64,000 nucleotides of DNA from Bradyrhizobium sp. 200. Its GTDB lineage: Bacteria; Pseudomonadota; Alphaproteobacteria; Rhizobiales; Xanthobacteraceae. Shown here one piece after another: positions 32,499 to 35,043 of this stretch. Every line of letters begins with the position of its first letter. Positions within the stretch are counted from its first letter, which is position 1. The notes below the pieces were generated by a model. It did no database searches, was not told where the DNA came from, and saw nothing but the letters and a program-made list of their open reading frames with translations. The stretch is taken from the NCBI RefSeq assembly GCF_023100945.1, contig NZ_CP064689.1, forward strand, positions 2,958,001 through 3,022,000. The letters are read 5' to 3'. The position numbers and the translations under genes are program-made.

Positions 32499-33326
32499 TC
32501 ATTTCATCAGGCCCAGTCGGCTGGCGCCGATATAGAGCGCGAGCACTGCGGCGTTCGAGACGTTCAGGCTCTTGATCTCGCCGGGCATGTCGAGGCGCGC
32601 CACCACGCGGCAGGTCTCGCGCGTCAGTTGCCGCAGGCCCTTGCCCTCGGCGCCCAGCACCAGCGCGAGCGGTTGCTGCAATGTCACTGCGCCGAGGTCC
32701 TCGCTGCCCTCGCTGTCCAGCCCGACCGTCATGAAACCGCGGTCGTTCAGTTCGTTGAGCGCGCGGGCGAGATTTTGCACCGTCACCAGCGGCACCAGCT
32801 CCAGCGCGCCGGAAGCGGATTTCGCCAGAACCCCGGTGGCCTCCGGGCTGTGCCGGGCGGTGGTGACGATCGCTTTCACCGCAAAGGCCGCCGCCGAGCG
32901 CATGATCGCGCCGACATTGTGCGGGTCGGTGATCTGGTCGAGCACCAGCACGATGCCTTCTTGGGCCAGCGTATCGATATCGGGCGAGGGCAGGGGATCG
33001 GCCTCCGCCAATAGCCCCTGGTGCACGGCGTCGGGGCCGAGCCGCTGGTCGATCGCGTTCGGGCGGACGATTTCGGGGGGAACGCGGGTGTCGATATTCT
33101 CGTCCGCCAGCCGCCTTGCGGCGTTTTCGGTCAGGAACAGCTTTCGGATCTGCCGTTCCGGGTTGGCCAGGGCCGCCGCAACCGTGTGCCAGCCATAAAG
33201 AATCACCAGCCCGTCAGGGCTCGAATCCCGGACCCGGTGACCGGGCGGACGGGCGAATTTCCGCCCTTTTTCGAAGGGTTTACCGCCGCCGCGGCGGAAC
33301 GGCGGTTTTCGGTCGCGATCGCTCAT
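32499..33326 (-). CDS. rlmB: SpoU/TrmH-type 23S rRNA (guanosine 2251-2'-O) methyltransferase
   Basis: A 275-residue protein. A basic N-terminal tail precedes an L30e-like substrate-binding region (VILYGWHTVAAALANPERQIRKLFLT). The SPOUT catalytic domain has the three motifs: DPHNVGAIMRSAAAF, LVLGAEGKGLR and SLNVSNAAVLALY. It methylates the 2'-O of guanosine in the ribosomal large subunit RNA. tRNA-Tyr lies 205 bases upstream on the opposite strand. Nothing in it is unusual. Confidence 0.93.
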   Translation of the reverse strand: MSDRDRKPPFRRGGGKPFEKGRKFARPPGHRVRDSSPDGLVILYGWHTVAAALANPERQIRKLFLTENAARRLADENIDTRVPPEIVRPNAIDQRLGPDAVHQGLLAEADPLPSPDIDTLAQEGIVLVLDQITDPHNVGAIMRSAAAFAVKAIVTTARHSPEATGVLAKSASGALELVPLVTVQNLARALNELNDRGFMTVGLDSEGSEDLGAVTLQQPLALVLGAEGKGLRQLTRETCRVVARLDMPGEIKSLNVSNAAVLALYIGASRLGLMK

Positions 33327-33832: not shown

Positions 33833-34228
33833 TTAGCCCTGACCGCCTTCGTTCGCCGCTTCCGGCAACGCTTCTCCCGGTAGATAAAGCCTGATCGGGC
33901 GGATCTCGTAGACCGCCGACGGATTGACGCGGCGCAGGTCGCGGGCGATGCCGATCGCGGCGTCTTCGTCGGCGCAGTTCACCACGTAGAGGCCCAGCAA
34001 CTGCTCCTTGGTTTCGGCGAACGGCCCGTCGATCACCATCCCGTTCCCTGGTCCCCGCAAGGTGCGGGCCTCCGCCGTGCCACCCAGCCGCGCCGCGGGC
34101 CCGAGCAGGTTGCTTGCGTTGAGCCGGTCATGCACCGCCAGCAGTCCGGTCATCACAGCCGCATCCTGTTCCGGCGTCCAGGACATCACCTCGGCTTCGA
34201 CGTGATAGGCAAGAATGGCATAAAGCAT
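33833..34228 (-). CDS. YCII-related (DGPF) protein
   Basis: A 131-residue protein. IDGPFAETKEQLLGLYVV is the DGPFAETKE signature of the YCII/DGPF family, often next to sigma-70 ECF genes but not here. The opening MLYAILAYHVE is typical. The family is small and its biochemical role is not established. A possible ribosome-binding site precedes the start at 34228. No operon partner is seen. Confidence 0.88.
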   Translation of the reverse strand: MLYAILAYHVEAEVMSWTPEQDAAVMTGLLAVHDRLNASNLLGPAARLGGTAEARTLRGPGNGMVIDGPFAETKEQLLGLYVVNCADEDAAIGIARDLRRVNPSAVYEIRPIRLYLPGEALPEAANEGGQG

Positions 34229-34421
34229 CGGATTCTCCTTGATGGGCTGGCCGCACTGGCTACCCCTTTAAAGGACGATCCGGCCCGGATCATCCCGACA
34301 TATGGGCCGCGACGAAACGTTCCGGAAACACGATATATAGGATTGCACTTGAACGCGGGGCGGCAGGCTCTCGACTGATGAGCAGAACGCGAGCCAACGC
34401 GCATCATTCAAGGAGACGGTC

Positions 34422-34619
34422 ATGCGACGCCAGCCAGCCACGATCATCTGCGATGCCGCCAGATGGCGTGCGCCACAGCCGGCGTCGTCGCAAGCGGGCG
34501 ATTGGCACGACGTCACCGGCCATCACCGGTACTACGGCAGTTCGGCCATCAATGGCGGCGAGCGCATCGTCGAAGACCGCCGCCGCCCGCGCCCGCGCGT
34601 CAATCTCTGCGGCTTCTGA
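34422..34619 (+). CDS. small basic protein, unknown function
   Basis: A 65-residue protein starting MRRQPATIICDAARWRAPQ and ending in an Arg/Pro-rich stretch (VEDRRRPRPRVNLCGF). It has a strong AAGGAG site nine bases before the ATG. There is no membrane segment or known domain. The good ribosome-binding site argues that it is real. It is transcribed toward the minus-strand micro-ORF unit. Confidence 0.5.
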   Translation: MRRQPATIICDAARWRAPQPASSQAGDWHDVTGHHRYYGSSAINGGERIVEDRRRPRPRVNLCGF

Positions 34620-34659
34620 CTTTTTTCGGCGAGCCCCCTGCAAATCACCAAAGCAAATG

Positions 34660-34691
34660 AAAAAAGCGCGGCGGGATGGCTCCCGCCGCGC
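34660..34691 (-). terminator. strong rho-independent terminator of the micro-ORF unit
   Basis: On the minus strand GCGCGGCGGGA-GCCA-TCCCGCCGCGC is a perfect 11-base stem, followed by six T residues. It faces the micro-ORF promoter at 34835-34863. Confidence 0.85.
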
Positions 34692-34755
34692 TCCAACTCT
34701 TGTGCTCGCTGGTCCAGGCCTGAGAGCCGCCCGGAGCCAGACCTCAAAACAAGGC

Positions 34756-34800
34756 CTAGCGGGCGATCCCAGCGAGGTGACAGCGCTTGGTATAAGACAC
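34756..34800 (-). CDS. 14-codon micro-ORF behind an extended Shine-Dalgarno
   Basis: GTG start at 34798-34800, then SYTKRCHLAGIAR and TAG. It is preceded by AAAGGAGGTGATCCA (34815-34801), complementary to nearly the whole 16S 3' end, with AGGAGG seven bases from the GTG. A longer frame starting at ATG 34818 would add six residues (MKGGDP) by reading through the Shine-Dalgarno. It has its own promoter and terminator. Whether the peptide acts or only regulates is unknown. Confidence 0.6.
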   Translation of the reverse strand: MSYTKRCHLAGIAR

Positions 34801-34815
34801 TGGATCACCTCCTTT
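34801..34815 (-). promoter_or_regulatory. Shine-Dalgarno complementary to the 16S rRNA 3' end
   Basis: AAAGGAGGTGATCCA pairs with GGATCACCTCCTTT, the standard 16S 3' terminus, over about 14 bases, far beyond the usual 4-6. Such a long match should hold the 30S subunit unusually strongly. Confidence 0.8.
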
Positions 34816-34834
34816 CATTGTTGGTGGAAGCATC

Positions 34835-34863
34835 AATATAGGCGGCGAATCGGCCGCTGTTAA
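34835..34863 (-). promoter_or_regulatory. sigma-70-type promoter for the micro-ORF unit
   Basis: On the minus strand TTAACA (34863-34858), a 17-base spacer and TATATT (34840-34835). Predicted transcription start near 34828, giving a leader of about 12 bases before the Shine-Dalgarno and an RNA of about 170 bases to the terminator. Confidence 0.65.
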
Positions 34864-34969
34864 GGGCCCGGCCAAGGCGGGTTGCCGGGGAACAGGGCCG
34901 TTTTGAAGAAGATAGGGGCCGGCGGCGCGGGTTGAGGCCGCCTGCACGGCGTGTTAGGTCAACGCCAGC

Positions 34970-35043
34970 GCGGGTGTAGCTCAATGGTAGAGCAGCAGCC
35001 TTCCAAGCTGAATACGAGGGTTCGATTCCCTTCACCCGCTCCA
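34970..35043 (+). tRNA. tRNA-Gly (TCC)
   Basis: A 74-base tRNA with CCA. GCGGGTG pairs with CACCCGC; the anticodon TCC is in CAGCCTTCCAAGCTG; the T loop is GTTCGATTC. Its 3' end is repeated at 37679-37712. Confidence 0.95.

Follow-up and report, generated by a model that had tools for sequence, protein, structure and literature searches.

The closest described relative of the locus considered here is CC2171 (RF01867), which is listed by Rfam as a small RNA (sRNA). It appears in Table 2 of the Rfam 15 paper, with one covarying pair added (PMC11701678), and in a table of Mesorhizobium sRNAs (PMC5596092). A search of the openly accessible literature found no functional study of CC2171, and the name is absent from the main texts of two Bradyrhizobium papers, two Caulobacter Hfq papers and one study of peptide-coding sRNAs. 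Likenesses of mechanism are found elsewhere. In the aapA type I toxin mRNAs of Helicobacter, anti-SD motifs mask the Shine-Dalgarno (SD) sequence and are accompanied by long-distance pairing between the 5' and 3' ends (PMC6733600). SmelA075/SmelA099 and the Caulobacter SisA-D RNAs are alphaproteobacterial small RNAs built on SD/anti-SD pairing (PMC3927594, PMC12559287), and in Staphylococcus aureus there are extended SD start sites, at which SD pairing reaches towards the start codon (PMC13009471). The bacteria concerned here are ones in which many genes are not SD-reliant, with 75.4% of Caulobacter genes showing no reliance on SD sequences (PMC4117421).

The locus lies on the minus strand of a window of 64,000 nucleotides, the whole stretch of Bradyrhizobium sp. 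200 DNA that was analysed. From sequence comparison it is best explained as a divergent relative of CC2171, a gene standing on its own whose product, a structured RNA of ~165 nt, doubles as a mini-mRNA. We put at about one half the probability that this RNA is a free-standing, translation-coupled switch that opens when it forms a long duplex with the 16S tail. Unlike aapA, where the peptide is the toxin, the unit has an unconserved peptide and no known antitoxin RNA, and the likeness is one of mechanism rather than membership. Whereas SmelA075/SmelA099 and SisA-D have the anti-SD as acting motif, the unit carries the SD and is of opposite polarity; these anti-SD sRNAs could be its partners. 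The extended SDs of S. aureus are cis elements of ordinary genes, in contrast to what would be a self-locked, free-standing RNA.

A sequence-only reading of the window had described a promoter, an SD, a GTG seven bases past AGGAGG, a 14-codon ORF and a six-T terminator, all of which are present on the minus strand. To these elements can be added a predicted SD-locking hairpin and a predicted long-range pairing of the ORF. The features are as follows.

34835..34863, minus strand: sigma-70-like promoter, TTAACA (34863-34858), 17 nt, TATATT (34840-34835), from direct reading and consensus scan; partly conserved in 85 genus loci.
34801..34816, minus strand: super-Shine-Dalgarno GAAAGGAGGTGATCCA, which with the G of GTG gives 17 nt complementary to the 16S 3' end; the SD block AAAGGAGGTGATCCA is read directly at 34815-34801.
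34756..34800, minus strand: micro-ORF with a GTG start (34800-34798, 7 bases 3' of AGGAGG), 14 codons (MSYTKRCHLAGIAR) and a TAG stop (34758-34756), from direct reading and 85 genus loci.
34774..34811, minus strand: predicted hairpin sequestering the SD and start codon, GAGGTGA (34811-34805) with TCACCTC (34780-34774), continued by CAGTGT (34802-34797) with GCGCTG (34786-34781), from fold prediction and opening cost.
34757..34770, minus strand: second internal anti-SD GGGATCGCCCGCTA, complementary to the SD spacer GATCC.
34705..34776, minus strand: putative long-range helix P1, CTCGCTGG (34776-34769) with CCAGCGAG (34712-34705), from prediction and alignment.
34720..34771, minus strand: P2 region, the ORF end with GGGCGGCTCTCAG (34732-34720), in the minimum-energy fold.
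34660..34694, minus strand: intrinsic terminator with a perfect, GC-rich stem, GCCA loop and six T (34665-34660), from direct reading, scan and double changes in the stem.

In a consensus scan of 34560-34960 the promoter is the sole sigma-70-like site (shuffles mean 0.0) and the terminator the sole terminator-like site. Since 0.7 such terminators are expected in shuffles, the scan alone does not prove it; its stem also carries double changes in a 51-row alignment of Brady-type loci, in which the window and L001 are one locus. The window RNA folds at z -5.7 versus shuffles. A tRNA gene at 34970-35040 (plus strand) lies divergently upstream of the unit, as it does at the close relative L002, and the same-strand genes downstream are those for a YCII-domain protein and a SpoU-type rRNA methylase, at 33833-34228 and 32499-33326 (both minus strand). 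The 5' leader CAACAAY, at 34823-34817 (minus strand) before the SD, recurs across clades far outside the genus, and no pairing was found that accounts for its recurrence.

Searched at the gathering threshold, the whole window yields three tRNAs in Rfam and nothing else. In an E-value search the locus matches RF01867 CC2171 at 51.2 bits (E 1e-9) over model positions 1-159 of 159, below the gathering score of 75 bits. The sequence-only reading was right to suspect a known small-RNA family in the background and wrong in its guess of a BjrC family: among the 13 Rfam matches up to E 10 in 34400-35000 there is no BjrC model, and membership of those families was rejected. RF01867 matches 18 of 20 chosen loci at E<=1e-4. 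The gathering score is exceeded by six from the window's own bacterial family, at 75.4-93 bits (e.g. L064 at 93); window-type loci score 48.6-49.2 bits, and one such locus from Rhodopseudomonas reaches 63.2. The homology between window and RF01867 is significant over the full length and is bridged by intermediate sequences. The two have in common a 5' block (GAAAGGAGGUGAUCCAGUGUCU), the terminator and the length. Unlike the SHC-type loci, which mostly have about 20-26 codons, the window has 14; its outer helix is shifted inward and its anti-SD is different. The outer helix CAUUGUC:GACAAUG of SHC-type loci and of the consensus line is absent from the window, where CUCGCUGG:CCAGCGAG is found instead. 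The unit is read as a divergent homologue of CC2171 that is a non-member by Rfam's own threshold. Across the class the RF01867 model finds relatives in 61 of 289 genomes at E<=0.001, nine of them over the cut-off, and among 14 control genomes it matches Caulobacter vibrioides only. Weak matches may be false, because 11 of the 67 fetched model-found loci have no recognisable SD core.

Confinement of the order of SD, ORF and terminator to close strains was to count against the sequence-only reading; conservation is wide and does not refute it. The 204-bp unit matches 111 of 117 genomes of the genus (107 of the 109 of good quality). With up to 2 mismatches, GAAAGGAGGTGATCCANTGTC is found in 119 of 198 genomes of the taxonomic family, against one genome for its backward-sequence control; one genome has two full matches on different contigs and another has matches at two contig ends. 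An exact AAAGGAGGTGATCCANTG is present in 26 of 289 class genomes (control 0), and a close pattern with one mismatch allowed in 48 of 86 class genomes, leaving 38 without a match, versus 0 of 213 phylum genomes outside the class. The SHC-type pattern gives at least 120 matches, and among those listed are Bosea, Methylobacterium, Microvirga, Devosia, Rhodopseudomonas, Brevundimonas, Phenylobacterium, Azospirillum and Acetobacteraceae. A Ramlibacter MAG also among those listed may be contamination. There is usually one match per genome. Genome G128 has two different CC2171-type units, L105 and L137, with peptides MSHCHALN... and MSHGSAKG...; these are possibly paralogues with divided roles.

The unit had been thought autonomous, and its surroundings agree: among 203 loci with flanks, some of which are one place fetched twice, no neighbour gene is common to all. 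The largest neighbour cluster has 26 loci, all of Brady type. Judged from these flanks, the unit does not serve one particular adjacent gene throughout the family. A leader-peptide attenuator for one conserved neighbour was rejected, as there is no common downstream gene and the largest cluster covers 26 of 203. Two neighbour clusters mix locus types. One, of 19 loci, contains ABC-transporter binding-protein-like sequences (read by eye) at varied distances from the unit. The other, of 16 loci, is the DUF188 (YaiI) gene, which is close downstream on the same strand in 14 (within about 30 nt) and on the opposite strand in 2; a local cis effect is conceivable at the 14, which are of types other than Brady. 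The DUF188 start lies at most ~30 nt past the terminator, on the same strand, in most of L073-L083, L088, L089, L095 and L289. At L382:2723-3021 an alphaproteobacterial tmRNA gene is found ~1.2 kb from a CC2171-type RNA.

The match to 16S rRNA had been noticed earlier as one of ~14 bases; it is indeed long, and longer than that figure, as the antisense of the genome's own 16S 3' end (L057) shares GAAAGGAGGTGATCCAG, 17 nt, with the unit. The genome, of 9.49 Mb, has four copies of the 12-mer AAGGAGGTGATC: in the unit, antisense to 16S (L057) and at L059 and L060, the last two without a start codon at the unit's spacing. Sequence comparison supports a super-SD able to pair with the single-stranded 16S 3' tail over ~15 bp. 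The computed pairing energy of the full SD with 14 nt of the 16S tail is -26 kcal/mol, and that of GGAGG alone -7. Since the SD is the reverse complement of the 16S 3' end, the unit might be suspected of being a chance sequence or a fragment of antisense 16S. The identity stops at the start codon, however, and the conservation in 111 of 117 genomes of the genus, with 48 of 86 in the class against 0 of 213 in the rest of the phylum, rules out a chance origin of the SD; this reading is refuted and keeps virtually no probability.

Most comparisons of pairing were made on loci retained from a wider collection. Of 380 loci, 333 were kept, with site, length and terminator required, and the pairing and hydrophobicity tests used 129 non-redundant loci from these, after 6 with ORFs of more than 40 codons had been removed. 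The 129 comprise 76 SHC, 45 other (44 in the whole-arm shuffle test) and only 8 Brady-type loci. In the window, a predicted 13-bp hairpin holds the SD and start codon against codons 5-9. The computed cost of opening the SD has a median of 10.3 kcal/mol at 84 genus loci and of only 5.0 kcal/mol at all 129, in both cases with pseudoknots left out and no shuffled baseline. By these computed energies, the lock in the genus is beyond the reach of an ordinary SD and yet can be opened by the super-SD, which would account for the great length of the latter.

The pairs of the sequestering hairpin show no double changes in the 51-row alignment, and SD:anti-SD covariation is hardly demonstrable because the SD barely varies. 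The SD has one variable base; there an A-T or G-C pair is seen in 109 of 124 Brady-type loci, G-T in 3 and neither in 12 (kinship ignored). Of the 18 Brady-type loci whose spacer reads GGTCC in place of GATCC, 12 have C as the partner base; of the 106 that keep GATCC, 97 have T. Covariation at this one base is suggestive only. A broader comparison gives a mean z of -1.16 for the pairing of SD to ORF (n=129, p 1e-21, kinship ignored), with controls of +0.08 for SD versus 3'UTR (n=128), -0.07 for a 16S-like query and -0.35 for the reversed SD (p 0.001). Part of this signal is composition, because the reversed-SD control is slightly negative and only 37% of loci have z < -1.64. In the large SHC clade a frequent form of the anti-SD is CUGGAUCNUCGCCUC, which resembles the 16S end CUGGAUCACCUCC. 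These comparisons support an ORF that carries an anti-SD which is able to pair with the super-SD and, in the SHC clade, imitates the 16S 3' end.

The ORF appears to be engaged in a second pairing, with the segment ahead of the terminator. In most clades this pairing begins at codon 3, with CAUUGUC:GACAAUG or one of many replacements, and in the window's type at codon 9. One P1 pair turns from GC into AU by changes on both sides in 8 of 51 rows and is broken in 3. P1 competes with the SD lock because CTC (CUC in the RNA) belongs to both pairings; forcing it gives -82.8 kcal/mol versus a minimum of -87.3, a cost of 4.5. RNAalifold on the broad clade recovers nothing beyond a small hairpin at the SD, the outer helix and the terminator, and swap and shuffle tests were used because inner helices are lost to misalignment. 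For the swaps, 8 loci judged doubtful were removed from the 139 with a detected terminator, and the remaining 131 were reduced to 76. Own arms pair at -31.4 kcal/mol and swapped arms at -24.1 (n=76; 0 of 20000 permutations); in the 45 most varied loci the first helix gives -7.43 and -4.41 (0 of 20000 permutations). Because arms within one genome share composition, each locus was also compared with its own dinucleotide-shuffled 3' arm. The first helix then scores z -1.28 (n=45), and whole arms score -2.23 (8 Brady), -3.12 (76 SHC) and -2.15 (44 other). It is supported by these tests that the ORF doubles as RNA structure, pairing over a long range with the segment ahead of the terminator.

The reading frame itself is also kept. 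A 14-codon ORF is present at all 85 fetched genus loci, ending in TAG (46), TAA (28) or TGA (11). More widely, frame length was judged on 144 loci less 5 without a detected terminator (including L040, with a 57-codon ORF), since ORFs of more than 40 codons had already been removed from the set of 129. At all 139 the ORF has 13-40 codons, versus 53 and 43 of 139 in the other frames, and its stop lies ahead of the terminator in 137, versus 97 and 92. Conservation of the start codon is claimed from model-found loci only, because the site search demanded TG after the SD. At 56 of the 67 the SD core is recognised (the other 11 may be false matches), and each of the 56 has NTG where the start is expected (30 ATG, 20 GTG, 6 TTG), the RF01867 model itself containing GUG; in 53 codon 2 is TCN. 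Translation looks to be under selection, with start and stop codons interchanging while the frame stays short.

The same cannot be said of what is translated. Over disjoint pairs of 75-98.5% identity, pN/pS is 1.71 for the Brady type (61 pairs), 0.78 for the SHC type (29) and 0.84 for others (12), and the peptides of different clades appear unrelated. Codons 5-14 are nearly constant in the genus, with no synonymous variant in them among the 85 genus loci; both synonymous variants seen fall in codons 3-4. Eight of the 129 non-redundant loci have a GGRGCARCCTYC-like motif 54-56 nt past the start; it falls in frame 0 in one locus, frame 1 in two and frame 2 in five. At the 85 genus loci the SD carries 1.6-2.0 bits per position. 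The earlier proposal that the peptide is itself functional finds no support among the short ORFs. The comparison supports start codon, frame and stop being kept and the peptide not, and the constraint seems to fall mainly on the RNA; a conserved peptide was rejected on these pN/pS values and on the lack of synonymous variants in codons 5-14. A weak constraint on the peptide is compatible with values of 0.78-0.84, for instance in the SHC type. As a caution, conservation of start, frame and stop in a short ORF is no proof that its peptide has a function.

In the switch that we favour, the RNA would rest in a locked state, to be invaded through the long pairing by a 30S subunit whose 3' tail is intact, a step that an ordinary 5-bp SD could not afford. 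The ribosome would then translate the short ORF, melting the 5' arm, and would stop ahead of the 3' arm, which would stay single-stranded and exposed. Translation would be the switch and the peptide a by-product, and candidate outputs are an exposed 3' arm acting in trans or a changed stability of the RNA. The anonymous Rfam sRNA would thereby become a class-wide family with a testable logic, in which the act of translation is selected and the peptide is not. A bolder and distinctly more doubtful version makes the RNA a class-wide sensor of the ribosome: the super-SD, held by a mimic of the 16S 3' end, would open only when there is enough free 30S with intact tails and would report this through translation-driven refolding, the peptide being irrelevant. 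If true, this would be an RNA with the 16S 3' end as its ligand, and a means for the cell to gauge free or intact 30S.

Ribosome binding may serve other ends. A trans-acting base-pairing sRNA, with its 3' half as the active part and a strong SD and micro-ORF that merely recruit ribosomes to protect or time the RNA, is unlikely, though several observations speak for it: the 3' arm is very constant in the Brady-type alignment, with CAGCGAG invariant in 51 of 51 rows (the window and L001 counting as one locus), the family is annotated as sRNA and no neighbour is shared by all loci. Against it, the 3' arm is mostly accounted for by its pairing with the ORF and differs between clades. That the RNA holds ribosomes had been proposed earlier, and the capacity for pairing bears this half out, at a computed -26 kcal/mol with a 14 nt tail; a 30S sponge would tie up subunits and lower translation, for example in starvation, and an ORF structured from codon 3 could slow accommodation. 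Against a sponge stand an SD predicted to be locked (in the genus by about 10 kcal/mol), the usual single match per genome, and a selected stop before the terminator that a pure trap would not need. With the SD predicted to be shut away within the RNA, a gated switch is likelier than a constitutive sponge, and we regard the sponge as improbable, at something near one chance in eight.

Two further explanations centre on the peptide. That it is the product is a poor prospect: the conserved start, frame and stop and the near-constant codons 5-14 in the genus count in its favour, and in Azospirillum the 5' element heads a secreted-looking protein of 57-59 aa with pN/pS about 0.2-0.5, yet the short ORFs have pN/pS of 0.78-1.71 and peptides that appear unrelated across clades, the genus lacks synonymous variants in codons 5-14 and an RNA motif recurs in three frames. 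A type I toxin mRNA, with a short peptide, an SD masked by an ORF anti-SD and long-range 5'-3' pairing, is very unlikely. The masking logic is that of the aapA mRNAs (PMC6733600), and SD masking with long-range pairing is indicated here by prediction and comparison; the ORFs are of 13-39 codons, and a strongly hydrophobic 13-residue stretch occurs in 11 of 129 peptides, versus 6 and 2 in the other frames. A conserved, hydrophobic peptide is nevertheless not what is found, the peptides being mostly non-hydrophobic (mean GRAVY 0.14) and unconserved, and this explanation was rejected on hydrophobicity. In addition, the unit is present in 107 of 109 good genus genomes, and the consensus promoter scan of 34560-34960 finds no plus-strand promoter for an antisense gene.

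Six of the 333 loci, five belonging to Azospirillum, have ORFs of 57-59 codons that appear to encode genuine proteins. At the Azospirillum loci L276, L287, L294, L328 and L353 the super-SD and a ATGTCTCATGG start head an ORF of 57-59 aa with a signal-peptide-like beginning, known only as a hypothetical Azospirillum protein; three pairs give the pN/pS of about 0.2-0.5. This may be a lineage in which the mini-mRNA has gained a real product. The Azospirillum loci have a CCATG segment before the terminator, as though the outer helix were retained. At L040:1-3018 another super-SD is followed by a secreted-looking ORF of 57 codons that bears no resemblance to the Azospirillum ORF.
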